Of a DNA stretch of 64,000 nt, positions 522-56,752 are shown piece after piece. Source of the DNA: a bacterium GBS-1. Its GTDB lineage: Bacteria > Synergistota > GBS-1. The notes under the pieces were generated by a model, which did not search any database, was not told the origin of the DNA, and saw nothing but the letters and a program-made list of their open reading frames with translations. A program made the translations under genes and the position numbers. Numbering within the stretch: the first letter of the stretch is position 1; each line of letters starts with the position of its first letter. The stretch spans positions 1 to 64,000 of the forward strand of contig LEKQ01000007.1 in assembly GCA_001443005.1 (NCBI GenBank). The letters run 5' to 3'.

Positions 522-1076
522 CTAAAATAGGGAGAAGAATAATATATTTGATAGGGCGTGAAATAAAATTGGTGCTAAAAGGGACCCTGTTTTCTCCCGT
601 AGATAACCGAATATGAGGGATGGCAGGAATACGCCTACATTCAAGGGCGTTATGCCCTTAAAAAGGTGAGCTATTGTGAAAAGTATGGATGTTAGGGTTA
701 TGCTCTTCCAAGGGTTTCTTGTCATCTCCTTGATCTCCGTTTGAAGATACCCCCTGAAGAATAGCTCTTCAGGTAAGGCTACTCCTAGGATTTGAATTAG
801 GATGAGTGAGAGTGGGATTTTGTGAAAGCCTTTGCTATAGGATAGCGCTATTGAAGCTATAGCGAAGGGCAGAAGGAAAAGGGCCGAGGTCAAAACCAAG
901 AGTTTCAGCGATTTAGCCCAGTTCTTTAAGGTTATTCCGTAGCTCTCCCATAGGGTTCGAGGTATCAGGAGAAGTGGTAGATAAAGCATGTAGGCCATCG
1001 CTATATCCCTTCTTATCCATAGCAAGGTTATCAGTCCTATGTAGCTAAAGGAACTTTTCAAAAACCTGGTTCCCAA
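522..1076 (-). CDS. CPBP-family intramembrane metalloprotease
   Basis: A 184-residue, very hydrophobic protein with about five membrane segments. It carries the CPBP (CAAX protease and bacteriocin-processing, PF02517) motifs: PEELFFRGYLQ (motif 1, the two catalytic glutamates and an arginine), FTIAHLF (motif 2 histidine) and HALSN (motif 3). Family members cleave near membrane-embedded segments, and some process C-terminal sorting signals. The TTG start at 1076 has GGAG upstream and overlaps the 3' end of hemW by 32 bases, so the two genes are likely translated from one message. The substrate is unknown; the C-terminally anchored surface protein at 53116-55554 is a distant, speculative candidate. 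Confidence 0.8.
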   Translation of the reverse strand: MGTRFLKSSFSYIGLITLLWIRRDIAMAYMLYLPLLLIPRTLWESYGITLKNWAKSLKLLVLTSALFLLPFAIASIALSYSKGFHKIPLSLILIQILGVALPEELFFRGYLQTEIKEMTRNPWKSITLTSILFTIAHLFKGITPLNVGVFLPSLIFGYLREKTGSLLAPILFHALSNILFFSLF

Positions 1077-41002: not shown

Positions 41003-41004
41003 CC

Positions 41005-41478
41005 ATGCCAAAGGTTCTTATCTCTTATTACTCCCGGGGTGGTAATACTAAAGCGATGGCCGAGGCGGTCGCTCAAGGAGTTAGAGAGGAAGGGGTAGAG
41101 TTTACCCTTAAGAGCGTACCTGAAACCACACCGGAAGATATGAGACTTTACGAAGGTATAATAATCGGCACGCCAACCTACTTTGGCGCTCCAGCTGCGC
41201 CGGTTAAGAAGCTTATAGATGATAGCGTTAAGTATTATGGCGATCTTGAGGGTAAAGTAGGAGCGGCTTTTGCATCCTGTGGGATTTTAGGCGGTGGGGC
41301 TGAGACCGCAGTTTTAGACATAATAAAGGCCTTTCTTATACATGGTATGATAGTCCAAGGGATAGTTAACGGAGGTCACTATGGGCCGATTTCCGTTGGA
41401 AAGCCTGACGCGAAAGCTTTGGGGGAGTGTAGGGAGCTAGGGAGAAAGGTCGCTCAGCTTGTGAAGAGGCTCTTTTGA
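41005..41478 (+). CDS. Flavodoxin-family protein (WrbA-like)
   Basis: A 157-residue flavodoxin fold protein. ISYYSRGGNTKAMAEAV is the FMN phosphate loop, IIGTPTYFGAPAAPVKKLID is the isoalloxazine loop, and ASCGILGGGAETAV follows. It is a likely electron donor or quinone reductase. ATG at 41005 is preferred over TTG at 40999. Its coupling to a radical SAM gene suggests it reduces that enzyme's [4Fe-4S] cluster. Confidence 0.85.
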   Translation: MPKVLISYYSRGGNTKAMAEAVAQGVREEGVEFTLKSVPETTPEDMRLYEGIIIGTPTYFGAPAAPVKKLIDDSVKYYGDLEGKVGAAFASCGILGGGAETAVLDIIKAFLIHGMIVQGIVNGGHYGPISVGKPDAKALGECRELGRKVAQLVKRLF

Positions 41479-41499
41479 TGGTGATTTGCTGATGAAGTG

Positions 41500-41537
41500 G
41501 GGTTGCAAGCTTGAGCTTGCAACCCATTATTTTTATT
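41500..41537 (+). terminator. Rho-independent terminator
   Basis: An 11-base-pair stem (41500-41510 with 41515-41525, loop TTGA) is followed by ATTATTTTTATT. It ends the run from yajC to the flavodoxin gene. Confidence 0.88.
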
Positions 41538-41541
41538 AAGA

Positions 41542-42630
41542 ATGGGTGAGCTTAGGGTGAGAGTTTATGTAGCTGGTCACAGGGGGCTTGTTGGGTCTGC
41601 TATAGTTAGAAGGTTAAGTAGGAAGGTCCACCTCGAAATATTAACTAAGACCAGCAAGGAGCTAGACCTAAGGAGGCAGGCTGAAACGGAAAGCTTTTTC
41701 GAGGAAGCTAAACCTGATCAAGTTTATCTTTGTGCTGCTAAAGTTGGTGGCATCCTTGCGAATAGCACCTTTAAGGCGGATTTTATATATGACAACCTCA
41801 CTATAGCTTTAAACGTAATCCATGCTTCTTATAAATACGGTGTTAAGAAGCTACTAAACCTTGGGTCTTCCTGCATATATCCAAAGGACTCTCCCCAACC
41901 CATGAGGGAGGAGTACCTCCTTTCGGGGTATCTTGAGCCCACCAATGAGGCTTACGCTATAGCTAAGATATCTGCTATAAAACTCTGCAGGTATTATAAC
42001 GAACAGTATGGGACCAACTTCATATCTGTGATGCCAACGAATCTATATGGTCCTAATGATAACTTTGACTTATATACGTCTCACGTTTTGCCTGCCTTAA
42101 TAAGGAAGTTTCATTTAGGAAAAGCTCTCGAAAATGGCGATTGGGAGGCAATCATGAGGGATTTGAACGCCCGCCCTATAGATGGAGTAAGAGGGGATAG
42201 CTCTAGGGAGGATATCTTGAAGGTTCTATCTAAGCATGGGATTCGCTTAAGCAAGGCTTCGCTTAAAGTCGAGGTCTCCATATGGGGGAGTGGTGAGGTT
42301 TACAGGGAGTTCTTGTTTGTTGATGATCTAGCTGATGCTTGCGTCTTTCTCATGGAGAACATAGATGCTTCTGAGCTTAAGAAGCTTTGCCCCGATTACT
42401 TCTTGAACGTTGGCTTTGGAGAAGAGATAAAGATAAAGGATCTAGCTAAGCTGGTCAAAGAGATCGTGGGTTTTGGAGGCAAGATAGAACATGATCTCTC
42501 TAAACCGGATGGTGTATATAGGAAGCTCTTGGATATATCGAGGATAAAATCTCTTGGTTGGGAGCCCAAGGTGGGACTTGAAGAGGGAATAAGAAGAACC
42601 TATGAGTGGTATCTGAGCAGTTTACCCTGA
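41542..42630 (+). CDS. fcl: GDP-L-fucose synthase-like NAD-dependent epimerase/reductase
   Basis: A 362-residue extended SDR. It has YVAGHRGLVGSAIVR (cofactor loop), NLGSSCIYPK, YAIAKISAIKLC (YxxxK) and GSGEVYREFLFVDDLADA, all typical of GDP-4-keto-6-deoxymannose epimerase-reductase. It is about 45 residues longer than E. coli Fcl because of an insert near residues 185-245, a variant seen in other bacteria. The usual partner, GDP-mannose dehydratase, is not in the window. The ATG at 41542 has no clear ribosome site; GTG at 41557 is an alternative. Confidence 0.87.
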   Translation: MGELRVRVYVAGHRGLVGSAIVRRLSRKVHLEILTKTSKELDLRRQAETESFFEEAKPDQVYLCAAKVGGILANSTFKADFIYDNLTIALNVIHASYKYGVKKLLNLGSSCIYPKDSPQPMREEYLLSGYLEPTNEAYAIAKISAIKLCRYYNEQYGTNFISVMPTNLYGPNDNFDLYTSHVLPALIRKFHLGKALENGDWEAIMRDLNARPIDGVRGDSSREDILKVLSKHGIRLSKASLKVEVSIWGSGEVYREFLFVDDLADACVFLMENIDASELKKLCPDYFLNVGFGEEIKIKDLAKLVKEIVGFGGKIEHDLSKPDGVYRKLLDISRIKSLGWEPKVGLEEGIRRTYEWYLSSLP

Positions 42631-42652
42631 GCCTAGTTTAAGCTTTGGCACA

Positions 42653-42661
42653 TGGTATAAT
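42653..42661 (+). promoter_or_regulatory. Extended -10 promoter for lysine aminotransferase gene
   Basis: TGG followed by TATAAT (42656-42661) lies 49 bases before the ATG at 42710, in the short gap after fcl. No convincing -35 is seen. Confidence 0.55.
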
Positions 42662-42709
42662 AGAGTTTAGGATAAAAAAGCATTAAATAAGAGGTGGGAG
42701 GGATGGATT

Positions 42710-44047
42710 ATGGCTTACAGTGATCGGAGCGTTAAGCCAGATGAGGTTCTTACTTTGCTTTCTAAGTATATGTTAGTTGATGGTTTCCCCGTGGTTCTTG
42801 ACCTTGAGAAGAGTCAAGGGAGTTGGATAGTTGACGCTCGCGATGGTAGGAGGTTTCTTGACCTTTACTCCTTCTTCGCATCCTCCCCTTTGGGGTGTAA
42901 TCATCCCAAGCTCGCTAACGATGAGTTTAAGGAGAGAGTTTTTAGGGCTGCGGTTAACAAGGTTGCAAACTCCGATATATACACCGTTGAGATGGCTGAG
43001 TTCGTGAAAACTTTTATGAGAGTAGCTGCTCCTCCTATCTATACTCACCTGTTCTTGATAGATGGTGGTGCTTTAGCTGTTGAGAACGCTCTTAAGGTTG
43101 CCTTTGACTGGAAGGTGAGGAAGAACTTCAAGAAGGGGTATAAGGAAGAGAGAGGACATAAGGTTATACACTTTAAGGATGCTTTTCATGGTAGAACAGG
43201 ATATACTCTTAGCATGACAAATACGGCGGATCCGAGGAAACATATGTACTTTCCGAAGTTTGATTGGCCTCGCGTCCTTAATCCCAAGATAGTTTGGCCC
43301 TTAGAAAAGCATCTTGAGGAAGTCGAAAAAGCTGAGGAGGAGAGTATAAAGCAGATCAAGCAAGCTATTCACGATAACCCTGATGATATAGCAGCTATAA
43401 TAATAGAGACGATCCAGGGCGAGGGTGGAGATAACCACTTCAGAGGTGAGTTTTTGAAAAAGCTTAGGGAGATAGCGGATGAGGAAGATGTAATGCTTAT
43501 ATTCGATGAGGTTCAGTGCGGCATGGGTATAACCGGGAAGATGTGGGCTTTTCAGCACTTCGATGTATATCCGGATATCATAGCCTTTGGTAAGAAGAGC
43601 CAAGTTTGTGGCATTTTGGTTACAAATAGGATAGACGAGGTTGAGAATAATTGCTTTGTAGAATCAAGCAGGATAAACTCTACCTGGGGTGGAAACATAG
43701 TAGATATGGTTAGGGCAACAAGAATACTCGAGATCTATGAGGAGGATAGGATTATAGATCACGTTAATGAAGTGGCTCCTGTTCTTCATAGGGGCTTGCA
43801 CGAACTTGAGGAGGAGTTTCCCAATCTAATTTCCAACGTTAGATATAGGGGACTGATGGCTGCGATGGATTTTCCAACGCCGGCATTAAGGGATGAGTTC
43901 AGAAAGAGGATATTCGATAAGGGAATCTTGATCTTGGGGTGTGGGTCTAAGGGAGTTAGATTTAGACCAGCTTTGACCATAAGTAAAAGCGATATAGAGG
44001 AAGGAATAAGGTTAGTAAGGGAAGCTTTAAGGGAGATGAAGGTTTAA
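42710..44047 (+). CDS. lat: L-lysine 6-aminotransferase
   Basis: A 445-residue class III PLP aminotransferase. LYSFFASSPLGCNHPKL, LIDGGALAVENALK, FHGRTGYTLSMTNT and the PLP lysine in AFGKKSQVCGILV are characteristic of the Lat family, as distinct from acetylornithine or GABA aminotransferases. It moves the epsilon-amino group of lysine to 2-oxoglutarate, giving aminoadipate semialdehyde (piperideine-6-carboxylate). ATG at 42710 follows GGGAGGG. It has its own promoter and ends at a bidirectional terminator. Confidence 0.9.
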   Translation: MAYSDRSVKPDEVLTLLSKYMLVDGFPVVLDLEKSQGSWIVDARDGRRFLDLYSFFASSPLGCNHPKLANDEFKERVFRAAVNKVANSDIYTVEMAEFVKTFMRVAAPPIYTHLFLIDGGALAVENALKVAFDWKVRKNFKKGYKEERGHKVIHFKDAFHGRTGYTLSMTNTADPRKHMYFPKFDWPRVLNPKIVWPLEKHLEEVEKAEEESIKQIKQAIHDNPDDIAAIIIETIQGEGGDNHFRGEFLKKLREIADEEDVMLIFDEVQCGMGITGKMWAFQHFDVYPDIIAFGKKSQVCGILVTNRIDEVENNCFVESSRINSTWGGNIVDMVRATRILEIYEEDRIIDHVNEVAPVLHRGLHELEEEFPNLISNVRYRGLMAAMDFPTPALRDEFRKRIFDKGILILGCGSKGVRFRPALTISKSDIEEGIRLVREALREMKV

Positions 44048-44050
44048 AGA

Positions 44051-44091
44051 AAAAGGGGGTAGTCTCTGAAAGCTCGAGGCTACCCCCTTTT
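44051..44091. terminator. Bidirectional terminator between lat and epmA
   Basis: A 12-base-pair stem, AAAAGGGGGTAG (44051-44062) with CTACCCCCTTTT (44080-44091), has A-rich and T-rich ends so it works in both directions. The epmA stop codon lies within the right arm. Extra CTC/GAG pairs extend the stem inward. Confidence 0.85.
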
Positions 44092-44982
44092 AGTAAGCGG
44101 GCTGAAAGGAAGAATCTCGTGTATACTGCTTTTCCTGCATTTAAGCATCAAGAGCCTTTCAAGGCCTAGGGCGATTCCGGAAGAAGGGGGTAAACCTTTA
44201 CTTTCGAGGAGCTCTAAGTATTCCCAATCTATCTCACTTTCTCTTCCGCGTGATATCCACCTTTTCTTTTGCTCTTCTGGATCATCGAGCTCAACGTATC
44301 CGTTAGCGAGCTCAACCCCTTCTACATAAGCTTCGCACCTTGTGCTCCAGAAGCCGTCACACTTAGATGAGGCGGCTAAGGGATAAGGATAATCTACCAG
44401 CCAAAAAGCTCTATCTTTAGGAAGATAGGGGTCTATCTCGTTTAAGAACGCTGCTTCAAAGAGCTCTTCCCAAGAATAGCTATCCTTTACTTTTAAACCA
44501 GCTTTTTTAATCTTCCGCAATAGGGTTTCCTTATCTTTCGCTTCCTCCAGGTTTATGTCTAATCTCTCCTTAAATAGCTCTCTTAAGCTTATGCTATCCC
44601 ATGGGGGAGGGTATCTTCCGAGGACTTCTGAAACCAGATCTTCCACATCTCTCTTTATAGCTCTTATGTCTTCTCCTACCCTATACCATTCGAGTATGAG
44701 AAACTCCTTGGTATGTAGGTCATCTACAGGGTCATCTCTAAAAGCATGAGCTATCTGAAATATCCTCTTTGCTCCAAAGATCAGGAGCTTCTTCATGAAG
44801 AATTCGGGCGAGGCTTGAAGATAAAGCCCGTTCTCCACCTTTATAGGTTTTATGTTTGGATCAAGGTTGTGCCATGGAGCGAGGACAGGGGTTACGACCT
44901 CTGTGAAGCCCCTCTTTAAGAAGAAGCTCCTTACCTGAGAGAGAAGCTCGCTCCAGAGCTTAGTTCTTTCCCAAGGGTTCAT
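44080..44982 (-). CDS. epmA: EF-P lysine ligase (EpmA/PoxA/GenX-like)
   Basis: A 300-residue class II lysyl-tRNA-synthetase-like protein without the tRNA-binding domain. Motif 2 is FRDDPVDDLHTKEFLILEWYR, CEAYVEGVELANGY binds the lysine, and motif 3 is GIALGLERLLML. EpmA attaches (R)-beta-lysine to a lysine of EF-P. It directly follows efp with an ATGA overlap, which strongly supports the assignment. The beta-lysine-making aminomutase EpmB is not in the window. Confidence 0.92.
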   Translation of the reverse strand: MNPWERTKLWSELLSQVRSFFLKRGFTEVVTPVLAPWHNLDPNIKPIKVENGLYLQASPEFFMKKLLIFGAKRIFQIAHAFRDDPVDDLHTKEFLILEWYRVGEDIRAIKRDVEDLVSEVLGRYPPPWDSISLRELFKERLDINLEEAKDKETLLRKIKKAGLKVKDSYSWEELFEAAFLNEIDPYLPKDRAFWLVDYPYPLAASSKCDGFWSTRCEAYVEGVELANGYVELDDPEEQKKRWISRGRESEIDWEYLELLESKGLPPSSGIALGLERLLMLKCRKSSIHEILPFSPLTKRG

Positions 44983-45551
44983 TTGTTAACTCTCTCTATG
45001 TATTCACCCGTTTCCGTATCGACCCTAACTATGTCTCCTTCTTCTATGAAAAGTGGAACCATTATCTTTAGGCCTGTTTCAAGTTCTGCTTCCTTCATCG
45101 CTCCTGAGACGGTATCCCCTTTAACTCCAGGCTCTGTTCTTGCAACCGCTAAATCAACATGCTTGGGCGGATTTACTCCTATCGGTTTGCCCTGATAGAA
45201 TATCACATAAACGCTAGTCCCCTCCTTTATGAAGTATTGTGCTCTCCCAACCACGCTCTGTGGTATCTCTATCTGTTCATAGGTTTGTGGGTCCATGAAA
45301 ACCAAGGAGTCCTTTTGTGAGTAAAGGAATTCCATCTCCTTTTCGCTACAATCTGCAAGCGTTAGGGTATCGCTTGATTTGAAGCTCATCCTTTCAACGT
45401 TTCCGGTAAAAAGGTTTAGCATCTTAACCCTCACGAAGGCCTGTCCCTTTCCCGGCTTAACGTGTTCGTACTCGATCACCTCGTAAGGGACGCCATCGAT
45501 CTCTATTTTTGCTCCTTTGTAAATCTGGTTTATTCCTATACTTTGTGCCAA
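44979..45551 (-). CDS. efp: Translation elongation factor P
   Basis: A 190-residue EF-P with three beta-barrel domains. The tip loop reads EHVKPGKGQAFVRV, so K35 is the likely beta-lysylation site (E. coli K34). GDTVSGAMKEAELETGL and VPLFIEEGDIVRVDTETGEY close the protein. It rescues ribosomes at proline runs. The start is TTG at 45551 with AAGGAGGGG upstream. A minus-strand extended -10 (TGA TACAAT, 45602-45597) is a plausible promoter. Confidence 0.96.
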   Translation of the reverse strand: MAQSIGINQIYKGAKIEIDGVPYEVIEYEHVKPGKGQAFVRVKMLNLFTGNVERMSFKSSDTLTLADCSEKEMEFLYSQKDSLVFMDPQTYEQIEIPQSVVGRAQYFIKEGTSVYVIFYQGKPIGVNPPKHVDLAVARTEPGVKGDTVSGAMKEAELETGLKIMVPLFIEEGDIVRVDTETGEYIERVNK

Positions 45552-45596: not shown

Positions 45597-45629
45597 ATTG
45601 TATCAAAAGGATTCGTTCTGTGCTATAAT
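45597..45629. promoter_or_regulatory. Divergent promoters for efp and the ATPase-glycosyltransferase operon
   Basis: On plus, TGC then TATAAT (45624-45629) is an extended -10 facing the ATPase gene, with TTGTAT at 45598-45603 as a weak, wide-spaced -35. On minus, TGA then TACAAT (45602-45597) faces efp. Because the plus transcript would start near 45636, an upstream reading of the ATPase from 45598 is ruled out. Confidence 0.6.
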
Positions 45630-45675: not shown

Positions 45676-46671
45676 TTGAAGTTCTGGGATAGGAAAGGCG
45701 AGATTAAGTTTTTAAGGGCCTATCTCAGAAGCTTTCCTAATTCCATTCTCTTTATATATGGTCCTAAGTCCTCTGGTAAAAGCACATTGATCATGGAAGT
45801 AATAAGAAGGTTGAGATCAAATGAGAGAGTGATATATTTCGATTTTAGAAGCAAGCTTTTAAGGGCTTCCCAGAGCTTCATAGATCTATTCTTCAAGATA
45901 GGGGGTTCGGAAAGAGAAGGGCTTAAGAGCGCATTTGATATTGACGAAAAAAGTAAAAAGGGGATGAGTCACGGCGAAATAAACCCCTTCGAAATCATGG
46001 AGGAGCAGCTTAAGCGCGGGTCTGGAGGAAATGTGATTATAGTCGATGAGGTGCAGAAGCTTAAGGGCTTATATTCTGACCCTCGCTTCAAAGATGGTGG
46101 GCTTATGGATGAGCTTTTAAACTTCTTCGTTAGGATAACAAAGGTCGAGCATATATCTCACGTTATCTTGATGACATCTGACACCTTTTTTATAGAGGAG
46201 CTTTCCTCAAGATCCCTTTTAGCCAATTGCGCTGAGTATTATTTGGTTGATTTTTTCTCCGATGATATTGCTAAGGAGATACTTCTCTCGGAGCACTTGA
46301 ACGATGTCGAAGCTTCTTACGTTGTTTCATGGTGTGGTGGTGTTCCTTGGTTTTTGGAGAGAGTCCTTTCTAAAAGAAAGATCTTGGGAGTTAAGGAAGC
46401 TGTAAAGTCACTATACGATATGGTTAAGGGGGAGGTTCTTAAGAGCCTTGGCAGGCTTTGGAGAGGGAAAGAGGATCTGGCGAAGAAAGATGGAGAGGTT
46501 CTCGTTAAGGTGGTTATGGGGGGAAGGGTAGACATGCTCTTGAGGGATAGGGATAGCGTTGAGAGACTCGCTTCAGAGGAGGTAGTTTTCTATGATCCTA
46601 TCAAAGGCTTGGTTCGCCCCCAGACTCGGCTTCATGATAGGGCAATAAGGGAGATATTGGGGCTTCAGTGA
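45676..46671 (+). CDS. Archaeal-type/STAND-like AAA ATPase
   Basis: A 331-residue P-loop ATPase beginning KFWDRKGEIKFLRAYL, the usual opening of the ATPase_2 (PF01637, archaeal ATPase) family. Walker A is YGPKSSGKST (residues 28-37) and Walker B NVIIVDEVQKL (D124, E125), with ILMTSDTFF as sensor 1. SWCGGVPWFLERVL matches the GG-P-x-hydrophobic motif of this group, followed by a small C-terminal winged-helix-like region. Such proteins act as regulatory switches. TTG at 45676 follows GGAGGTG and lies after the promoter. It is the first gene of an eight-gene operon. Confidence 0.82.
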   Translation: MKFWDRKGEIKFLRAYLRSFPNSILFIYGPKSSGKSTLIMEVIRRLRSNERVIYFDFRSKLLRASQSFIDLFFKIGGSEREGLKSAFDIDEKSKKGMSHGEINPFEIMEEQLKRGSGGNVIIVDEVQKLKGLYSDPRFKDGGLMDELLNFFVRITKVEHISHVILMTSDTFFIEELSSRSLLANCAEYYLVDFFSDDIAKEILLSEHLNDVEASYVVSWCGGVPWFLERVLSKRKILGVKEAVKSLYDMVKGEVLKSLGRLWRGKEDLAKKDGEVLVKVVMGGRVDMLLRDRDSVERLASEEVVFYDPIKGLVRPQTRLHDRAIREILGLQ

Positions 46672-46693
46672 GAAGGATAAGGGAGGGAATGGT

Positions 46694-48889
46694 TTGCTCG
46701 TATACGATAGTATCTACCATGAGGGGGGCTTTTGGGTCAGCTCATATTTAGAGGGAAAGATCTATAGGCTTGACTTAAGTGGTAGGGTTAATAAGGTATA
46801 CGAGGGGTTTAGGAATCCTCTGTCACTGACCTTATCTCCTAAGGGGGTTTATCTCCTTGACGTGGGGACCTTAAAGCTTTATAGGTACTCGGAGAGTGAA
46901 GATAGATGGGTTGAGGAGGTCTTTCCCATCGAGGTCTCTCACCCATATTGGATTTCCTTCAGGGGCGATGAGCTTATAGTCGTCGATAAGGATAAAAGAG
47001 CCGTCTCGGGGCTTAAGGGGCTGGTAGGGTCTTCGGATTTTTTACCCCGCCCACTTTACCTTTTTGATATGCCTTCATCGGTGAAGCCTTTCGATGAGGG
47101 TGTTTTCATTTTGGCCGATGGTGAGAGGCTCCTCCTTAAGCTTTCGTGGGATGGGAAAGTCCTTGCCCTTTGGGAACTACCTCAGTCTCCTGTTTCATGG
47201 GGGGTTTTTAATGGTGAAGCTTACCTTCTATGTAAGGGGATTCTTTTTATAGCTCGTGGCGAAGAGCTTTTAGCTAAAAGCGTAGCCTCCAATTTCATAG
47301 CTCTTCTTTTAGCTGATTCTCCTATTTTATGGGATGGGAAGTCAACCGTTTATTTCGATAACGATGGGTGGTATGGGGTCAAGAGCTTAGCTGATCCGTG
47401 CAAGCTGATCCTGGTAAATGGGGGTGTAGATACCGGCCTTGATGCCTTTAGATCCCTCATTGATTCATTGGATTTGGAGGGTTTAGGACTTGGTATAGAT
47501 TCTCAAACCCTTATCGAGAGCTTCCTATTAAGCCCGACGCTTGAAAGGATCCTTGAGCTTCAATCTAAGGTCTTACCCCTAGAGCTCAAGCTTAAGCGCA
47601 TCTACCCTAACTTGCTTCGCTTCTTGGATGGGTTATCGAATAAACCTTCTAAGAGGCTTTTTAACCCACTCCTTAAGTTGTTTAAGTTATCCTTACCCTT
47701 TAACGCTTTTTGGTATCTACCATGGGAGGTCTACTGGAGGATACCGCGTGAAGAGAGGTCTGAGTTTAAGAGCAAGCTTTACGACCTTCCTTCCATAAAG
47801 GCTAATCCTATCCTTGAGACCTTAGATATAACCTTAAATGGGTTTAAAAGAGGCCTTGAGCGCGGCTTGGATGATAGGGTCGTTGATGATGCTTTAAGAG
47901 AGATAGGCTTTTTCAGCTGGATGAATAGGCTTTGCCAAAGGGCCTTGTTGCTCTTTGGCGAGGAGGATGAAATTATCGGTTGGTTTAAGCGATTCATAGA
48001 GTGGAGGGATAGCTTAGATCTCTTAAGGCTCATTGATAGGCCTAAGCTCAGGTCAGCATTGTGGGAGATCCTCTGGAATTCATGGAACTTTAACAGCTTT
48101 TATCTATCCTTAGCGGAGGAGAGGACCGGGGTTATCGGAAAATGTATATCGTCGATGAGCGGCGGTGAGGTTAGGAAGCTCTGCCAATCCTTTTATGCGG
48201 TTTACGCTTCTAAGGTTAACGATAGGTTCTTAGTTTCCGATTGGGGGGAAGGTTTTCTTTACAGCGTTTCATTAAAGGGTGACCTCCTATGGGAGAGGAG
48301 GGCAAAGGGGCCCACTTTCACCCTGGTTAAGGGGGATAGGGTCTACGTATCAGAGGGGCTTTCCAACTCTATCTTGATCTTTCGTTTGGATAGCGGTGAT
48401 CTTGAGGGGAAGATAACCTTGCCTGAGGGTGCTAAGGCGGAAAAGCTTTTTGAGACCAGCGATGGGAGGATCTTATGCTCCTATAGCCTTAAGGGGAGGG
48501 TCTTTTTAAGAAGCCTATCTGATGGCAAGGATATTCTGTCGTCGGAAGGCTCCTTCACTTACTTTACTCCTAATGACGCTATTTCGCTTTTCCTTCCTGG
48601 GTCTGTGCGCTCCTACGTTCCCTCTGAGCTTAAGATTTTCTTTGATCCAAGGCTCATAACGTTAGGGGATTGGCTTTATATCGATGGGTTTTACGTGGGA
48701 AATCAGGTATTGTGCGGGAAGATTAGCGCCTTTCATCTTGAGGGAAAAGACGTTAAGGATGTCAAAGGGATCCGAGGCGGTTACGTTTTTCCCGTCGTTC
48801 CCCTCTCGGTGGAGGGCTACATCCTCTCGCTTTTCCATCGCTGGGGTTATCTTGAGGATGTGCCTTTAGATCTACCCTCTAAGGGTTAA
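46694..48889 (+). CDS. Unknown protein with N- and C-terminal propeller-like repeats
   Basis: I do not recognise this 731-residue protein as a family. Residues 1-230 contain NHL/SMP-30-like strands (EGGFWVSSYLEGKIYRLDLSGRV, NPLSLTLSPKGVYLLDVGTLKLYRY). Residues 240-500 are mostly helical, rich in Leu, Arg and Trp. Residues 510-731 return to propeller-like strands (DRFLVSDWGEGFLYSVSLKGDLLWE, RVYVSEGLSNSILIFRLDSGDL). There is no signal peptide or membrane helix, so it is likely cytoplasmic. TTG at 46694 is six bases after GGGAGGG. It is the second gene of the operon. Confidence 0.75.
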   Translation: MLVYDSIYHEGGFWVSSYLEGKIYRLDLSGRVNKVYEGFRNPLSLTLSPKGVYLLDVGTLKLYRYSESEDRWVEEVFPIEVSHPYWISFRGDELIVVDKDKRAVSGLKGLVGSSDFLPRPLYLFDMPSSVKPFDEGVFILADGERLLLKLSWDGKVLALWELPQSPVSWGVFNGEAYLLCKGILFIARGEELLAKSVASNFIALLLADSPILWDGKSTVYFDNDGWYGVKSLADPCKLILVNGGVDTGLDAFRSLIDSLDLEGLGLGIDSQTLIESFLLSPTLERILELQSKVLPLELKLKRIYPNLLRFLDGLSNKPSKRLFNPLLKLFKLSLPFNAFWYLPWEVYWRIPREERSEFKSKLYDLPSIKANPILETLDITLNGFKRGLERGLDDRVVDDALREIGFFSWMNRLCQRALLLFGEEDEIIGWFKRFIEWRDSLDLLRLIDRPKLRSALWEILWNSWNFNSFYLSLAEERTGVIGKCISSMSGGEVRKLCQSFYAVYASKVNDRFLVSDWGEGFLYSVSLKGDLLWERRAKGPTFTLVKGDRVYVSEGLSNSILIFRLDSGDLEGKITLPEGAKAEKLFETSDGRILCSYSLKGRVFLRSLSDGKDILSSEGSFTYFTPNDAISLFLPGSVRSYVPSELKIFFDPRLITLGDWLYIDGFYVGNQVLCGKISAFHLEGKDVKDVKGIRGGYVFPVVPLSVEGYILSLFHRWGYLEDVPLDLPSKG

Positions 48890-48930
48890 AGGGCTCTATC
48901 ACTTCGGCGATAAATAAGGGGGGAGGAATC

Positions 48931-50352
48931 ATGAGGCTGATTAGGCTTAAAAACTTCAACCTTGATGATAGAGGATGCATCTTCGAGTTTGACGGTAGAA
49001 TATTTAGAGGGATATACGAACATAGGAAGGATCTAATCTTAGAGATTTTAAACGGCGGCCTTTTAGAGGAACTTGTGAAAAGGGGGCTTTTCGTTCCCAC
49101 GAGGGTTAGTGACCTCAAATTGGATGATTACGCTTTGGTTCTAGAACATGAGAGGGTTGACCCTATAATCTACCCTTATGAGTGGACCTTCTCCATGCTT
49201 AAGAGCGCTGCTTTGATGGTTCTTGATATATTTGAGGTGGCGAAAAAGTACGGCTTTTATCCGTTAGATTGTCATGCCTATAACGTCGGCTTTAAAGGGG
49301 GAAAGCCTGTTTTTCTCGATCTGGGCTCTTTCTTTAAAACCAATGCAAAGGAGGATGACTGTCTCCTTTCAAATTTCATAAGAAACTTTTCCCGAAGCTA
49401 CTACTTCCCCCTCTTTCTGTGGAGTAGAGGGATAGTTGACCTCGTTAGGTTCAACTTTTACCGTGGCTTTTACCATTCCTATAGGGAGTATCTTCTCCTT
49501 AGGGAGGGGTTATCCTCGGGATTTAGGATCGATGAGGCCCTAAGTCGCCTCATGTTTAAGGGCTTGAAGGAGATTGCTCTTTTCATTGCGAACCTTGGCT
49601 ATGACGAAAGTCCAATTGGTGACTTTAACGTTAAGAAAGGTTATGCACCTTTAATAAGCGGCCTTAAGATTCTTTTTAAGCATTCTGGGCTTAATCTGGT
49701 TTGCCTAAAGGGGTTGCGTGAAGAAATAGAGAACCTAAAGGTGAACTTCAAAACCAGGTGGGAGGATTACTATGGTCCTGCTCCCAAGCTAACCCCAAGG
49801 TTTAGTAGGATTCTTTCTCTTGTGAAAGATCTTTGCAGGGATGCTGAAACAGCTATAAGCTTCGGTGCCAACGCCTGCTTTTTCGAGAACGCTCTTCTTG
49901 ATATGACCCACATAAAGAGGGTTATCTGTCAGGATGCTGACTTTAACGCTTTGGACGCTGGCTTCAACAGGTACGGCCATAGGAACGATGGAAAAGAGAT
50001 CTTTTTCGCCTGCTATGATTTTTTAAAGCCCCTATTACCTATTACCAGGGTCAAGTCTCCTTACAAGAGATTTAAGTCTGATCTAGTTATTGCTTTGGCC
50101 TTAACTCACCATTTGATCTTACGGGAAGGGTGCTCCATGGATTTTATACTGAAGGAGTTCAGGAAATATACCAATAAGTTTGCTTTTATCGAGTTCATGC
50201 CCCTGGGGCTATGGTCACCGGGATCTGAAGTGAGAGTCCCTCCATGGTATACGAGAGATAACTTCAGAAACTCCTTTTGTAAATACTTTGATTTCCTTCT
50301 TGAGGAACAGCTTGAGGAAAACAGGATTTTATTCATAGGTAAAGTTAAGTGA
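48931..50352 (+). CDS. Kinase-like / class I methyltransferase two-part protein
   Basis: A 473-residue protein. The N-terminal half carries LDCHAYNVGFKGGKPVFLD (D113, H115, N118, D130), a degenerate phosphotransferase-like motif also found in NoeA-like methyltransferase proteins (usually D-A-S-A-Y-N...FID). From about residue 270 a Rossmann methyltransferase region follows, with AETAISFGANACFFENALLDM, VICQDADFNALD and LVIALALTHHLILREG in the family's usual order. It probably methylates a glycan or lipid-linked sugar; the substrate is unknown. It is 41 bases downstream of the propeller gene. Confidence 0.7.
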   Translation: MRLIRLKNFNLDDRGCIFEFDGRIFRGIYEHRKDLILEILNGGLLEELVKRGLFVPTRVSDLKLDDYALVLEHERVDPIIYPYEWTFSMLKSAALMVLDIFEVAKKYGFYPLDCHAYNVGFKGGKPVFLDLGSFFKTNAKEDDCLLSNFIRNFSRSYYFPLFLWSRGIVDLVRFNFYRGFYHSYREYLLLREGLSSGFRIDEALSRLMFKGLKEIALFIANLGYDESPIGDFNVKKGYAPLISGLKILFKHSGLNLVCLKGLREEIENLKVNFKTRWEDYYGPAPKLTPRFSRILSLVKDLCRDAETAISFGANACFFENALLDMTHIKRVICQDADFNALDAGFNRYGHRNDGKEIFFACYDFLKPLLPITRVKSPYKRFKSDLVIALALTHHLILREGCSMDFILKEFRKYTNKFAFIEFMPLGLWSPGSEVRVPPWYTRDNFRNSFCKYFDFLLEEQLEENRILFIGKVK

Positions 50353-50374
50353 TAGAATGTAAGGAGGTAGAACT

Positions 50375-52396
50375 TTGAAAGTTGCTTTGGCTTTTATGGA
50401 TTTTTATATCTACGGGCATTCTAGAAGAGTGATAGAGGAGTCTTTGAGGGTCTTTAATGGGCGGAAGTTTTGTTTTTACCTTGATTTTAGAGTTTTACCT
50501 TTCATCTCTAAGGATCTACTTGTGGGGAAAGAGATCAACCTCTTCTCAAGCGTTAGGGAGTGCTTTGACGAACTTGCTCGAAGAAGGGACATCGATGTCA
50601 TCGTCTTTTTCGATCTTTATCGACACAACATGGAAGGAATCAGAGAGGCTGATTTAAGCCATAGGCGGCTTATCATCTATAATGCCTCAGTTAATCTTCT
50701 TTTCTTCGATGAAGAAATGGAGCTTGTCTTGTCTAAGGGTTTCGTTTTCCTTCTGGAAAACGAAGTTGCGTGCCACATTGCTAAAAAGTATGCTTCCAAT
50801 TTTAACCGTTTTGGTTTCCTTCCCTTTCCTATCAGTGTGAGTGAGGATTTTAGAAAACCATCCTTTGATCTCGTTTTTCCGGGGAGCTTTGAGGAGAGGA
50901 AGGGGGCTTCGGTCTTTCTATCAGTCCTTCCCATGCTTTTAAAAAGGGGTTTCAGGTTGAGAGCGACTCTCTTTGGTAATGAGCGGTTTTTGGGTGAGCT
51001 CGCTCGATACAGGGACTCTATCTCCCTTAGAGAAGAACCCGATAGATCTCAGGAAGATTTCGTGAAGGAGCTTACCTCTGCCAAAGTCTGTCCACTCTTT
51101 TACGACCCCTATGAGTACTCTTTAGCCGGTTCTGGAATATTGAGAGAGTGTATGTTCTATGGCATACCGGTTGTGGCAACCGAAGGAAGCTGGTTATCCT
51201 ATTACCTTGAAAGGAACGGTGGAGCATGGGTCCCCTTGGACAATCGCATAGATAGTCATAGGGTCTTTGAGGTGATCGTGGAAGCACTTTCCAGATACAA
51301 TGAGCTTAAGGATAGAGCTTTAAGGGCTAGAGAGAGAGTTCAGGCTGAGTGCTCTTCGCGCGTCTTTAGGGATAAGCTGCTTAAGCTAATTGAGGGGGAC
51401 AATTTTACTTCTGAGAAGCTCGATCTTCCTGAGAGGGTTGTTAAAAGGGCTGAGTCCTATCTCTGGTTTATGAAGGCGAATATTGCTTATAGAAGGGGAA
51501 AGAAAAGCGAGGCTCAGGAACATATAGATAAAGCTCTAAGTATAGATCCAAACTATTGGCGAACCCTTTTTCTGAAATCTGAGCTACTCTTGGAACAAGG
51601 GGATTACAGGGGGGCCCTTGAGCTTATAGAGGTAGCCGAAACCAACCCTCTTATCTCTCCTACCAATAAGGCTTTCGCCTTAGTTGAAAAGGCCAAGATA
51701 TTTGAAAGGATGGGTAGATACTCGCTTTGCATTGATTCCCTCGAAGAGCTTAGGAGGTGGCGGGCCTATCTTTCATCAAGGAATGTTGAAGAACTCATCA
51801 AGCTATCTTCTCTTAGGGAAACCAAACTTTTAGATGACATTCTTCGTGATTCTCTTAACTATGTTGCTCTCTTAAGCCGTAAGGCTCATAAAATAAGGTT
51901 TATGCTTGAAGCCCTTTATGTTCGGATTTTGAAGGGTGAACCGCTTGAAGACTATCTAGACGTTTTGCTTGAGGAGATAGAAACGGTATCAAGAGAGGAT
52001 CCTTCTTCGGCAGAGTTTGAGTCTCTTAGAGTGCGGGAGACCTTCTATGAGCTCTGCTGTTCTTTCCTAAGTATGGATAGGCAGATTTCGGCGAAGCGTT
52101 TGTTATCAATCTTTGAGCTGCTTTGTCAAAGGCTTGGCGAAACAAACTCTCTTTACGTGTACAGCTTAGCTTCACTATATGAACGCTTGGGGGAGCTTGA
52201 TAAAGCTTATGAGCTCTTTAAAAGCTTGCTTGATAGGGGCTTTCATGTTAGGTCTGGTGTTTACTTTCACTTAGGGGAGATAGCTTTTAAGAAAGGTAAT
52301 AAAGACGAAGCTATCAAATTTTACCACCTATGCTTGAAGTGTGAGCCTAATCATAGTTTGGCGAAAGAAAGGCTTTATCTATTAGGAGGTGCATAA
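50375..52396 (+). CDS. Glycosyltransferase (GT4-like) fused to TPR repeats
   Basis: A 673-residue protein. Residues 1-350 form a GT-B glycosyltransferase: FDLVFPGSFEERKGASVFLSVLP starts the nucleotide-sugar domain and SGILRECMFYGIPVVAT holds the acidic donor-binding motif. Residues 365-673 are TPR-like repeats (KANIAYRRGKKSEAQEHIDKALSIDP, LGEIAFKKGNKDEAIKFYHLCLKCEP). GT-TPR fusions are common in protein glycosylation, where the repeats hold the acceptor. The start is TTG at 50375 with AAGGAGG seven bases upstream. It is four bases from the next gene. Confidence 0.82.
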   Translation: MKVALAFMDFYIYGHSRRVIEESLRVFNGRKFCFYLDFRVLPFISKDLLVGKEINLFSSVRECFDELARRRDIDVIVFFDLYRHNMEGIREADLSHRRLIIYNASVNLLFFDEEMELVLSKGFVFLLENEVACHIAKKYASNFNRFGFLPFPISVSEDFRKPSFDLVFPGSFEERKGASVFLSVLPMLLKRGFRLRATLFGNERFLGELARYRDSISLREEPDRSQEDFVKELTSAKVCPLFYDPYEYSLAGSGILRECMFYGIPVVATEGSWLSYYLERNGGAWVPLDNRIDSHRVFEVIVEALSRYNELKDRALRARERVQAECSSRVFRDKLLKLIEGDNFTSEKLDLPERVVKRAESYLWFMKANIAYRRGKKSEAQEHIDKALSIDPNYWRTLFLKSELLLEQGDYRGALELIEVAETNPLISPTNKAFALVEKAKIFERMGRYSLCIDSLEELRRWRAYLSSRNVEELIKLSSLRETKLLDDILRDSLNYVALLSRKAHKIRFMLEALYVRILKGEPLEDYLDVLLEEIETVSREDPSSAEFESLRVRETFYELCCSFLSMDRQISAKRLLSIFELLCQRLGETNSLYVYSLASLYERLGELDKAYELFKSLLDRGFHVRSGVYFHLGEIAFKKGNKDEAIKFYHLCLKCEPNHSLAKERLYLLGGA

Positions 52397-52399
52397 AGG

Positions 52400-52786
52400 A
52401 TGAATAGTTTTATGGAATCCTTGAGAGACGTTGAGAGAAAAGTGGACCATTTGCTTAAGGCTCAAAGGATCGTGATCTTTGGCGCTTCATCTGGTGGGCT
52501 TCAGGCCTTGGAGATGTTAAACAATTTAAACAAGAGTCCCTCCTTTTTCACTGACAATGACCAGGGAAAGTGGGAAAAGTACGTCAATGGGATAAGGGTT
52601 GTCCCTCCAACCGAGCTTAAAGTTATTGATCCTGATGTCATCATCATCGGTTCTAAAGTCTATGAGGATGAGATGATGGAACAGCTTTCAAGCTATGGCC
52701 TTAGAGATAGAGCCTATTCGCTTGATTTCTTGGAGCTTCTTTTAATGGGAAAGTTTCTTTCAAGACTGTTTGAGAAGCTTCGCTGA
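52400..52786 (+). CDS. Stand-alone Rossmann-fold nucleotide-sugar-binding-like domain
   Basis: A 128-residue protein with an N-terminal helix, then RIVIFGASSGGLQALEML (glycine-rich loop), PSFFTDNDQGKWEKYVNGIRVVPP and PDVIIIGSKVYEDEMMEQL. This matches the small Rossmann module found in PglD, CapD-like and C-methyltransferase C-terminal regions, where it binds a nucleotide sugar or NAD. Here it stands alone. It begins three bases after the GT-TPR gene, so the products may act together. Confidence 0.72.
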   Translation: MNSFMESLRDVERKVDHLLKAQRIVIFGASSGGLQALEMLNNLNKSPSFFTDNDQGKWEKYVNGIRVVPPTELKVIDPDVIIIGSKVYEDEMMEQLSSYGLRDRAYSLDFLELLLMGKFLSRLFEKLR

Positions 52787-52817
52787 TCTTTAAGGGATAG
52801 CGATAGGAGGCATAAGG

Positions 52818-53144
52818 TTGAGAGGAGCTTTCACTTTAATAGAGGTTTTAATAGCTACGTTGATCTTAGCCTTGGTTGGCGTTGGGGTCTTAAGCCTCGT
52901 TACCCAAAGCATATCGCTTGTCAGAGAGGCCCGCGATATACTCTCTTTAACGCTTGTGACCGAAGATCTGGTTACAAGAGACATCCTCGGTATGCTTCCT
53001 GATTGGGAGGTAAGAGGAGAAGTAGAGGGGTTTAAGTGGTCAAAAGAAGCGATCCCCACTCAGCTATCCGTTTTTGAACTTCGCAGGTATAAGGTGAGCA
53101 AGGAGGGAAGAGAGGTTGACTTCATCATCATTAAGAGGAAGTAA
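52818..53144 (+). CDS. Type IV prepilin-like protein (minor pseudopilin-like)
   Basis: A 108-residue protein starting MRGAFTLIEVLIATLILALVG, a class III signal. Counting F as mature residue 1 puts the conserved glutamate at +5, and the residue before the cut is Ala rather than the usual Gly. The rest is a short soluble domain with no pilin disulphide. It resembles GspI/PulI-type minor pseudopilins. No pilin assembly, secretion ATPase or prepilin peptidase gene is in the window. TTG at 52818 follows AGGAGG. It overlaps the next gene by 29 bases. Confidence 0.8.
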   Translation: MRGAFTLIEVLIATLILALVGVGVLSLVTQSISLVREARDILSLTLVTEDLVTRDILGMLPDWEVRGEVEGFKWSKEAIPTQLSVFELRRYKVSKEGREVDFIIIKRK

Positions 53145-55554
53145 GAGGTGGACGATTTTTCTCTTCCTTATCTTGCTCTTTGATTCAGTGGCCTTAGGGA
53201 AGGTGTTTGAGGTTCCAACCGCTAACTATCCTACCTTGAGTTCTGCCTTAGAGGAGGCTTTGTCAAACGATGAGGAGGATATCATCTATCTTATCGATAA
53301 TATTTGTGAAAACGTGCTTATCAGTTTAAAGAGCGGTAGCGAAGTCATAACCATAGAGGGTAAGGGTGGAGTTTTCGATATAAGTGGAGACGGAAAAGGA
53401 AGATGCTTAAGCGTTTTAGTTGAGGGAGGGAGTTTAAGGTTAGTTTTAAGTAAAATCAGGCTCACGCATGGGCTTAGTGGAGATAAGGGGGGTGCCTTTT
53501 TCTGCGAGGTCTTGCTAGGGGCTAGACTCTCCCTCGAAGCTTACGACCTATGGGTTGAAAGCTCCACGGCGAGTAGCCATGGTGGAGGCGTAGCCTTTGT
53601 CAATTATGGATTAACTGAGCTTAGCTTTAAGAGAGCTATCCTTAGGGGTAATAGGAGTGAGAGGATAGGAGGGGCTGTCTTCCTTGACGGTTGCTATGCT
53701 CTTTTTGAAAACTCCCTTGTGGTTGAGAACAGGGCCGATTACGGTGGAGGCGGTCTTTACATAGCTAATAGCTCTCATGTGGTTTTAGGAAGCTCCACGG
53801 TTGCCAATAACGTAGCCAGATATGATGTATATAAAAAGGATGGTGGAGGCATATACATCTCGGGTTCATCTACCTTGGAGCTTAAGAACTCTATAGTTTG
53901 GGGGAATGAGGGAAGCGCAAGTTCTAAGGATATATATCTTAGCTCTAACTCTAGTATTCAATGCAGATATAGCCTCTTGGAAGGATTTTCAGGGGAGGGT
54001 TGTATAGGTGGGAACCCTTTGTTTAATCAGGATTATTCTCTTTCCTCCTTGAGCCCTTGCGTAGATGCTGGTGATCCAGAGAGCTTCCCGAGGGATGATC
54101 TCTATGGCAATCTCAGACCAGCCGATGGCAACAATGATGGTAGAGCTCTTCCTGACATAGGGGCCATAGAGGCTCAGCTTGATATTACCCCTCCAGCGGA
54201 GCTGTCTAACGTTGAGGCCCTTACCTCTACTCATTCCGTTTATCTACTATGGCTTAACCCCTCAGACCTGGACTTCAGCTTCGTGAGGATTTACCTCAAT
54301 TCGCAAGGTTCGTGGGAGAAGATAGTGGAGATTTTTTCAGAGGAGTTTCTAGTTCAAGGTCTTTTGGCCGATACCGAGTATAGCTTTAAGCTATCAGCGG
54401 TAGATATATTTGGAAATGAGAGCGAAGGCGTTGTGATCAGCGTTAAGACCCTTGAAGAAACCCCGACTAATCCTGACCCAATGCCCCAGCCGGATACTAC
54501 ACCACCCCAGGATGTTCTTAATCTTTCTGCATCGCCTTCGACCCTCTCCGTGACCCTTCTATGGGATAACCCCCAGGACCCCGATCTTAAGGGGTGCAGG
54601 GTCTATAGGGAGAGCTTGTTTTTAGGGAGCCTTGAGGTTTCTCCATCGAGCTCAAGCTTCTATGAGGTTAAGGGCCTTGAGCCCGATACCCTTTACTCCT
54701 TTAAGGTTACAACGCTTGATAGGTCTGGAAACGAAAGCTCTGGAAAGTCCATTACCGTTAAAACATTGCCTCATAATAATCCTCCGGTGATAGAAAGGCT
54801 CGGGGTTATCCCTTCCATTGGCTCTAAGGGGACCCTGTTTAAGATCTTCTCTGTGGCCAAAGACTCCGATGGTGATAGCCTTTCCTACAGCTGGGAGCTA
54901 AGCGATGAGAGTGCGGGGTTATTCATGCCTTACGAATCGGAGGCTTACCTTGTGGCTTATGCATTGCCTGAGCCTGTTTCAGTTCACGTTAGGCTTAGGG
55001 TAACTGACTCTAAAGGTGGGTTCGATGAGAGGTCCGTATCTCTTAAGATAGATGCTTGGAGGGAAGAGGATAGCGACGGTGATGGGGTTGAGGATAGCGT
55101 CGAGGGGGATTGGAGATCAAATCCTAAGGTTGCTTTCTTTTACGAGAGCGGTATCATGTTAAAGGTAGATCAGGGTAAGCTGAGGAATCTGTCCCTTAAG
55201 GGTGAGAACCCTTACGATCTCTTCCTTGAAGTGATTGACTTAAATCCTGGTGATAGGGTTGAGCTTGAATTCCTCTTTCCCAATCTTATCGATATATCCC
55301 TATACGCATGGGAAAGGGGTGATAGCTTTAAGGCTTTGCCTTTCGTTGGGGCATCCTTAATCTTGAAGGATGGAGTAGATCCTGATCTCGATGGGGAAGC
55401 CAACGGTAGGGTTGGGGTGTTCTTGAGATTTAGCGGGAAGCCCGTTGAGCTTAAAGGAGGGTGCGAGCTTTCTCAAAGCTCGACGTTATTAGGTCTCGGA
55501 AACGTCCTCATCATCTTTGGGGCGGTTATACATCTTTTAAGGAGGGTTTTATAG
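53116..55554 (+). CDS. Secreted beta-helix/FN3 surface protein with C-terminal Cys-TM-Arg sorting-like signal
   Basis: An 812-residue exported protein. A signal peptide occupies residues 1-28 (cut after SVALG or nearby). Residues 30-300 are a right-handed beta-helix (repeated GGGVAF, GGAVFL, GGGLYIA, GGGIYIS). About 298-355 is a choice-of-anchor-Q-like end (NPLFNQDYSL, PDIGAIE). Two FN3 domains span about 358-551, then a PKD/cadherin-like domain and DSDGDGVEDS, a calcium-type motif near 655. A choice-of-anchor-U-like region follows (DGVDPDLDGEANG). The end has C783, one membrane helix and RR, like Cys-type CTERM sorting signals. The start is TTG at 53116, eight bases after AGGAGGG. Confidence 0.8.
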   Translation: MTSSSLRGSKRWTIFLFLILLFDSVALGKVFEVPTANYPTLSSALEEALSNDEEDIIYLIDNICENVLISLKSGSEVITIEGKGGVFDISGDGKGRCLSVLVEGGSLRLVLSKIRLTHGLSGDKGGAFFCEVLLGARLSLEAYDLWVESSTASSHGGGVAFVNYGLTELSFKRAILRGNRSERIGGAVFLDGCYALFENSLVVENRADYGGGGLYIANSSHVVLGSSTVANNVARYDVYKKDGGGIYISGSSTLELKNSIVWGNEGSASSKDIYLSSNSSIQCRYSLLEGFSGEGCIGGNPLFNQDYSLSSLSPCVDAGDPESFPRDDLYGNLRPADGNNDGRALPDIGAIEAQLDITPPAELSNVEALTSTHSVYLLWLNPSDLDFSFVRIYLNSQGSWEKIVEIFSEEFLVQGLLADTEYSFKLSAVDIFGNESEGVVISVKTLEETPTNPDPMPQPDTTPPQDVLNLSASPSTLSVTLLWDNPQDPDLKGCRVYRESLFLGSLEVSPSSSSFYEVKGLEPDTLYSFKVTTLDRSGNESSGKSITVKTLPHNNPPVIERLGVIPSIGSKGTLFKIFSVAKDSDGDSLSYSWELSDESAGLFMPYESEAYLVAYALPEPVSVHVRLRVTDSKGGFDERSVSLKIDAWREEDSDGDGVEDSVEGDWRSNPKVAFFYESGIMLKVDQGKLRNLSLKGENPYDLFLEVIDLNPGDRVELEFLFPNLIDISLYAWERGDSFKALPFVGASLILKDGVDPDLDGEANGRVGVFLRFSGKPVELKGGCELSQSSTLLGLGNVLIIFGAVIHLLRRVL

Positions 55555-55555
55555 C

Positions 55556-56752
55556 TTGAGAGCTTTATGGATAGCTCCTTATCTTTTCTACCCTCTGAGG
55601 GCGGGTGGGCAGTTTTCAATATACCCCTGGCTTAAGGAGCTGGCCTCAAGGGGATGGGATATTTTTCTGATACAATATAACTCTCCTCCAGGTTTATTGA
55701 GAGAGAGCTTAGAGGGGTTATCTTGGGCTCGGGGAGTCCTAACCGTTGAGCCAAGAAGATTCCGGGATAGGAAAAGCTACATTAGGGAGCTCGTGCTCTC
55801 TCAGGTGAGCTTCTTTAGATTAAGGAACGATGTTCCAGAGATATATGGTGCCCTAGGTAGCGTGAGGGACTTTGACCCTCAGCTGATAGTTCTTTCTCAC
55901 TCCTATATGGGCTTCCTGATCCCCGTTCTAAGAGAACTTTTCCCTCGCTCTAAAGTTTTGATAGATCTTCACAATCTTGAGTGGCGAGCCTATGCTAACT
56001 TTCTAAACATAGATTCCCCATTTTTGGATAGAGCTGATGCCCTTTTGAACTTCATCAGATTAAAGGAGGAGGAGAAAAGAGCTTTGATGGATTGCGATGG
56101 GGTAACATTTCTCTCTCCCTTAGAGGGTAAGTATGTTAAGCTTTTTGGAAAGCCCATGTTGTGGAGACCAGCTCGATTCCCTGAAAGTAGGATTATCTCT
56201 GAGGAGGAGCTTGTGAGGAACAAAGATATCATCATAACCTCAAGCCTCAACCTAAACTTAACTTGCATTGAGATCCTGAGCTTCATTAAGGATGTTTGGG
56301 TTAAATACAGGGAGCTTTTTAAGGGGGCTAATTTCTGGATATTAGGTAGGGAACCCTTAGATTGGTTTGTTAAGGAGGCGTCTAAGTCCGCGGGAGTTAA
56401 AGTGCTTGGATGGGTAGAAGACCCTTCACCCTATATAAGGATGGCTAGGGTTTTTGTCGCTCCATTTAAGAAGACGATGGGTAGCCTTACTAAGATAGTA
56501 AGCGCTTGGTCTTGGGGTGTTCCCGTCGTCACGACATCGCTCGTGGCTAAGGGACTTAGAGCGGAGCCTGGGAGACACCTTCTAGTCGGTGATAATTCAG
56601 AGGAGATTTTGTCCTCCTGCTTGAAAGTGGCTATGGACGATGATCTGGCTTTAAGGTTGTCTTCAGATAGTTATTCTTTCGTTATGAGGGAATATTCTCT
56701 TGAATCCTTCGTCAATAACTTTGAAAGATGGATCAGGGAGGGCTTACTATGA
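55556..56752 (+). CDS. Glycosyltransferase family 4-like
   Basis: A 398-residue GT-B glycosyltransferase. The N-terminal domain has APYLFYPLRAGGQFSIYPWLKEL and VLIDLHNLEWRAYANFL. The C-terminal domain has LGWVEDPSPYIRMARVFVAPFKKTMGSLTKIVSAWSWG split over its donor-site region, where the acidic residue common in GT4 is replaced by a T-K segment, then VVTTSLVAKGL. It probably adds a sugar to a surface glycan or protein. TTG at 55556 follows GGAGGG. It is the last gene of the operon, one base after the surface-protein gene. Confidence 0.85.
   Translation: MRALWIAPYLFYPLRAGGQFSIYPWLKELASRGWDIFLIQYNSPPGLLRESLEGLSWARGVLTVEPRRFRDRKSYIRELVLSQVSFFRLRNDVPEIYGALGSVRDFDPQLIVLSHSYMGFLIPVLRELFPRSKVLIDLHNLEWRAYANFLNIDSPFLDRADALLNFIRLKEEEKRALMDCDGVTFLSPLEGKYVKLFGKPMLWRPARFPESRIISEEELVRNKDIIITSSLNLNLTCIEILSFIKDVWVKYRELFKGANFWILGREPLDWFVKEASKSAGVKVLGWVEDPSPYIRMARVFVAPFKKTMGSLTKIVSAWSWGVPVVTTSLVAKGLRAEPGRHLLVGDNSEEILSSCLKVAMDDDLALRLSSDSYSFVMREYSLESFVNNFERWIREGLL

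Follow-up and report, generated by a model that had tools for sequence, protein, structure and literature searches.

The eight plus-strand genes between positions 45,676 and 56,752 of the window, the whole 64,000-nucleotide stretch analysed here (C7:1-64000 of genome G000, a 1.81 Mb assembly of 15 contigs that is 98.5% complete), appear to form a locus for surface glycan and surface protein that is linked to a split type II secretion system (T2SS), and not a pilus operon. Under this explanation, to which we give a probability of about 0.6, the protein cargo encoded by the operon would be exported, processed and passed on by the T2SS. The prepilin encoded directly before it is predicted to be the displaced T2SS minor pseudopilin GspI, a component of the pseudopilus tip, moved beside the gene for the secreted protein.

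An ORF check of the window found all eight genes on one strand at the positions given by the first-pass annotation, which had described them as tightly packed. The successive intergenic gaps are 22, 41, 22, 3, 31, -29 and 1 bp, and rpsF follows 118 bp further on. The single extended -10 promoter that the annotation placed before the operon, TGCTATAAT, also stands: the ATPase genes of G002 and LGFB01000118.1 (bacterium 42_11) are preceded by an exact copy, and that of G001 by the form TGTTATAAT. Generic promoter and terminator scans gave matches no more frequent than in shuffles, and the window yielded no Rfam or tRNA match. The features discussed below are collected in Table 1.

Table 1. Features of the operon and of associated loci; positions are those of the window unless another locus is named.
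Feature	Position	Strand	Evidence or remarks
Extended -10 promoter element TGCTATAAT	45621..45629	+	Read directly; upstream of ATPase gene
ATPase_2 family P-loop ATPase (TTG start)	45676..46671	+	PF01637, 117.5 bits, E 1e-33
Beta-propeller/helical/beta-propeller protein, cytoplasmic-looking	46694..48889	+	AlphaFold2, Foldseek
NoeA-type kinase-like and SAM methyltransferase, accessory gene	48931..50352	+	tblastn; literature (PMC9758233)
GT4-like glycosyltransferase (weak GT4) with C-terminal TPRs	50375..52396	+	Domain search, conservation
Small Rossmann domain, Methyltransf_14/NeuD N-terminal-like	52400..52786	+	PF08484, 25.6 bits against cut-off 23.5
Predicted GspI-type minor pseudopilin (relocated gspI)	52818..53144	+	N_methyl, profile orthology
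Secreted surface protein	53116..55554	+	Signal peptide, beta-helix, choice-of-anchor Q, two fn3, PKD-like, TSP3-like
C-terminal sorting tail (GGC-TM-RR) of the surface protein	55456..55551	+	GGC invariant in eight cargo tails
GT4 glycosyltransferase, TIGR03087-like C-terminus	55556..56752	+	Domain search
CPBP glutamic intramembrane protease, myxosortase family	522..1076	-	Probable tail-processing enzyme; PF02517, NF040914
Second prepilin and clostripain-like protein with GGC-TM tail	L047:4502-7171 (G000 contig C9)	-	Same pair in G001, G002 and G003

The arrangement was compared with two genomes of the same family, G002 and G003, and with G001 from another genus, which together with G000 make four genomes and three genera of one family. 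Seven of the eight genes (ATPase, propeller, GT-TPR, Rossmann, prepilin, surface protein and GT) are collinear and on one strand in both G002 and G003, with the ATPase gene of G003 interrupted by a contig end; thus the arrangement is not due to chance. An outcome in which no relative kept the gene order, named beforehand as fatal to the grouping, did not arise. The expectation that all eight genes stay together was borne out for these seven and failed for the 48931 gene, which is not present in G001-G003, and the set in its exact form is known only from the window genome. The conserved seven-gene block is bordered by rpsF-ssb on one side and, as G002 shows, by an EF-P/EpmA pair on the other. 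In the window itself, positions 39455-45551 hold a radical SAM/SPASM protein, a flavodoxin-like gene and an L-lysine 6-transaminase (TIGR03251, 671 bits) adjoining EpmA and EF-P; G001, G002 and bacterium 42_11 share the transaminase-EpmA-EF-P order.

Only the left end (ATPase-propeller) and the right end (prepilin-surface protein-GT) of the operon recur in G001, whose middle is a polysaccharide cluster of ∼20 kb with glycosyltransferase, sulfotransferase-TPR, dTDP-sugar and nucleotide-sugar genes. The locus is therefore a surface-glycan slot whose ends are fixed and whose middle can be exchanged. A mannose-1-phosphate guanylyltransferase-like gene of G001 is split over two reading frames (L043:6698-7308, +), through either a sequencing error or pseudogene formation.

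The most constant left-hand part of the locus is the ATPase-propeller pair, adjacent in all four genomes. By its Pfam match the ATPase is an ATPase_2 (archaeal-type) protein, 66-69% identical to the copies in G001 and G002; its matches to RecA fusions cover the P-loop only, and a scan of genomes with the ATPase alignment found one contig, LGFB01000118.1. The propeller protein matched no Pfam family. Structure prediction, which the first-pass annotation had recommended for the 46694 and 48931 products, was informative for the former: AlphaFold2 (mean pLDDT 71) placed a beta-propeller on either side of a helical domain, and Foldseek matched the model to NHL/WD propellers. The single-sequence model of the 48931 protein reached a pLDDT of 36 and was discarded. 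Orthologues of the propeller protein were found only within the family, at 38-43% identity; a genome scan with it gave no relative and a PDB sequence search was uninformative. A STAND-like ATPase beside a propeller sensor, as the most constant pair of the locus, could also suggest an anti-phage defence island with accessory enzymes, and the ATPase does have weak PADLOC matches (mad8, E 1.3e-8; PDC-S01, E 1.8e-5). These matches, however, span part of the ATPase domain only, the other proteins have no defence match in PADLOC bar a generic TPR one, and the locus shows vertical conservation at a single chromosomal position, where it is linked to genes for glycan and surface functions. The defence reading was rejected on the PADLOC test, and we regard it as very improbable.

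For the accessory 48931 product, tblastn returned rhizobial plasmid SAM-methyltransferases, one of them encoded between nodL and a sulfatase-like gene. The identity to that methyltransferase is 27.7% over residues 68-390, spanning both the kinase and the methyltransferase parts, and homology to NoeA was accepted on this basis; the nodL-noeA-noeB arrangement and the kinase-methyltransferase architecture of NoeA have been described (PMC9758233). A domain homologous to the small Rossmann protein is fused to a GT2 in G001.

The 108 aa prepilin has a class III N-terminus, scoring 21.4 against 21.2 for N_methyl (PF07963) and 19.2 against 16.3 for TIGR02532. A profile made from the four family prepilins was run against 121 genomes of the phylum, taking matches at E <= 1e-4, and 33 non-family genomes matched. 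At all 26 of the non-family Synergistota loci inspected among the matches listed, the best match was a prepilin of ∼110 aa encoded between gspC, of PDZ type, and gspD, the secretin gene. The reciprocal profile, made from 19 GspI sequences outside the family, gave 37.3-52.1 bits on the four family prepilins and at most 17.7 on the other family prepilins tested; without the shared N-terminal helix the scores were 10.7, 2.9, 18.0 and 15.4 bits against at most 2.4 for the others. The prepilin scores 24.9 against a cut-off of 44.35 for TIGR01707, which is no disproof of GspI because four gsp-operon GspI controls from other Synergistota likewise fall below it (20.2-34.8).

Among the full operons from eight other genomes, seven read J-K-L-M-N-C-I-D-E-F-G-H, with G/H missing from the fetched stretch or separated in L198 and L200; the eighth, from G082, ends before J. 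The G002 operon reads K-L-M-N-C-D-E-F-G-H, with gspC and gspD overlapping and no prepilin between them, and G003 has the same overlapping junction, again with no prepilin. Nothing gspJ-like precedes gspK in G002, where GspK is confirmed by PF03934 and a divergent gene for a tailed protein lies upstream. Both gspI and gspJ have thus been lost from the gsp operon in this family, as is best seen in G002. Best profile matches in both directions, together with the empty gspC-gspD slot, identify the operon prepilin, as far as sequence can do so, as GspI.

In three other Synergistota loci (L196, L197 and L198) the gsp operon adjoins rplI-dnaB or rplI, and the window operon with its gspI lies upstream of rpsF-ssb-...-rplI-dnaB. 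The gsp operon and the GspI operon may have been ancestral neighbours.

The identity of the prepilin bears on the proposal of the first-pass annotation that an orphan prepilin, with the ATPase as control or assembly switch, serves a pilus-like fibre. A prepilin and an ATPase do share the operon, as a dedicated fibre or display device with its own prepilin and motor would have it. However, the orthology of the prepilin to GspI of gsp operons largely refutes this reading; the ATPase belongs to ATPase_2 (PF01637) and not to T2SSE; and pilus machinery (PilB, PilT, PilMNOPQ, PilD and minor pilins) is encoded on contig C1, away from the operon. The T2SS of G001-G003, moreover, has its own GspE outside the operon. 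A pilus-like device is highly unlikely, and the role of assembly switch is not supported.

Whilst a T2SS is present in G001-G003, neither GspD nor GspG was seen in the G000 assembly, nor any GspE apart from PilB/PilT, a point against the T2SS explanation. A convergent porin gene follows the gsp operon in G002, and the SLH-type porin homologue of G000 ends at the end of contig C2 (59889-61286 of 61289). Because this homologue runs into the contig end, the T2SS of the window genome probably lies in an assembly gap; the idea that it had been lost was withdrawn on the same ground.

Turning to the cargo, the annotated role of decorating and displaying a surface protein is consistent with a signal peptide, surface domains, a Cys-TM-Arg tail and a glycosyltransferase gene directly 3′ of the surface-protein gene in all four genomes; the pilus-like fibre part of that proposal is not supported. 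Counts of N- and O-glycosylation motifs were unremarkable. Choice-of-anchor U passed the E threshold in the G002 surface protein, below its cut-off, and the same protein (L009:4543-7185, -) has a Pro/Glu/Gly linker of ∼60 residues between its fn3 domains that is not present in G000 or G003.

A GGC motif, a hydrophobic TM helix and a basic end were found in all eight cargo proteins, namely the surface protein and the clostripain-like protein (PF03415, 201 bits) from each of the four genomes. All eight tails are of the general Cys-containing CTERM kind, which is defined by a signal peptide together with a C-terminal Cys motif, TM helix and basic residues. The Synergist_CTERM model (TIGR04564) exceeds its cut-off in 67 of 101 phylum genomes and 0 of 14 controls, with one such match in G002 and none in G000, where the tail of the window protein scores below it. 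Sorting-tail genes flank the gsp operon in three of nine loci examined (G002, G012 and G082); this would support T2SS export of tailed proteins in Synergistota.

Further tailed proteins are encoded apart from any prepilin: at least one of 157 aa in the window genome (L161), and two beside the gsp operon of G002. The tail-profile search is biased and gives no full count of such proteins. The pairing of cargo and prepilin is therefore not obligatory, and the idea that every tailed protein has a prepilin neighbour was dropped. A rescan with a prepilin profile around 20 Synerg-CTERM genes found prepilins beside one of them, in G082, where the tailed gene follows gspG-gspH.

A candidate enzyme for processing the tail is encoded at the start of the window. 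The CPBP protease is the only PF02517 match found in G000; it scores 101.5 against a cut-off of 100 for Mrt_core (NF040914), with no equivalog match, and carries the motifs EExxxR (residue 103), FxxxH and HxxxN (residue 173). Three genomes have one CPBP protease each, with the catalytic motifs in all three. The gene adjoins hemW and a small conserved gene (1045-2148, - and 121-495, -), and the CPBP-hemW pair is found in three family genomes. In Myxococcus, MYXO-CTERM proteins are cut by a CPBP protease at the conserved Cys motif, and their predicted route to the surface is the T2SS (PMC11980579).

The clostripain-like protein brings in a second prepilin, whose gene lies 3-13 bp upstream of it in all four genomes. 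The C-terminal half of this prepilin scores 19.2-21.3 bits for T2SSJ (PF11612), under the cut-off of 28, and a Synergistota GspJ profile fails to tell it apart from other prepilins. By elimination it might possibly be the missing GspJ, a suggestion for which the evidence is weak.

How much meaning should be attached to these positions? Plain operon fragmentation would have gspI and the GspJ-like gene drift away while serving the T2SS generally, their places beside tailed proteins having no functional meaning. T2SS genes are indeed split over several loci elsewhere, for example five in Legionella (PMC6617341); several family tailed proteins lack a neighbouring prepilin; gspI may simply have stayed behind near rplI-dnaB when the gsp operon left; and moved genes could keep their linkage by chance in one small family. 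Against this, two prepilins precede two tailed proteins, each in four of four genomes from three genera: the first overlaps the surface-protein gene by 29-44 bp (29 bp in the window), and the second keeps its short gap. G001 also keeps the GspI-cargo-GT triplet whole, despite replacement of everything between it and the propeller gene. We consider drift without function unlikely, though a serious contender.

At the other extreme, GspI and the GspJ-like prepilin could be two interchangeable tip adaptors, each dedicated to the adjacent tailed protein, so that substrates would be chosen at the pseudopilus tip. This is a speculative proposal that we hold doubtful; the conserved gene arrangement covers four genomes of one family. 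A link between tip and cargo is plausible because the GspI/J/K/H tip complex of Pseudomonas has been described as critical for substrate binding (PMC6211770), and because a type IVb minor pilin can bind the secreted protein encoded in its own operon, as in TcpB-TcpF (PMC9565799). Under the preferred explanation GspI would be coupled to its neighbouring cargo for a reason.

The preferred explanation, a surface locus wired to a split T2SS, can be set out as a pathway. The 53116 product, probably a T2SS substrate, would be exported by Sec and stay anchored in the inner membrane through its C-terminal helix. The myxosortase-family protease would then cut the Gly-Gly-Cys tail at Cys783, by analogy after lipidation of the Cys, and the T2SS, with GspI of its pseudopilus tip encoded directly upstream, would carry the protein across the outer membrane. 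The flanking glycosyltransferases and, in the window genome, the NoeA-type kinase-methyltransferase would make or modify a glycan on or around it.

Substrate recognition by the T2SS is poorly defined (PMC6617341). A gsp operon without gspI and gspJ, and a GspI gene (with a possible GspJ) placed against two putative substrate genes, offer a hint from genetics, and pairs with which tip recognition could be tested. Identification of GspI would also correct annotations of an "orphan prepilin" and would extend the link between Cys tails, a myxosortase-type protease and the T2SS to an early-branching Synergistota family, at a locus that shows a glycan cassette swapped between fixed ends.

Several known systems resemble parts of this locus. 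The 48931 product shares the NoeA-type kinase-methyltransferase with Sinorhizobium nodL-noeA-noeB, but is here a lone accessory gene in a bacterial surface locus, with no nodL or noeB neighbour. MYXO-CTERM and Synerg-CTERM proteins with their CPBP myxosortases (MrtX, MrtS) share the Cys motif, TM helix and basic end, one Mrt-family protease per genome and a T2SS in the family; the window differs in a tail below the Synergist_CTERM cut-off, a protease over Mrt_core only, and a GspI gene adjoining the cargo. In TcpB-TcpF and CofB-CofJ of type IVb pili, a minor pilin and a secreted protein are likewise encoded in one operon, and there the minor pilin binds its cargo (PMC9565799), whereas the window pairs a predicted T2SS pseudopilin with a large tailed surface cargo. 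A further likeness is to GspI of Synergistota gsp operons, the reciprocal best profile match, whose gspC-gspD slot is the one left empty in this family; in contrast to those genes, the window gene lies in a glycan and surface-protein operon, overlapping the gene for its putative substrate.
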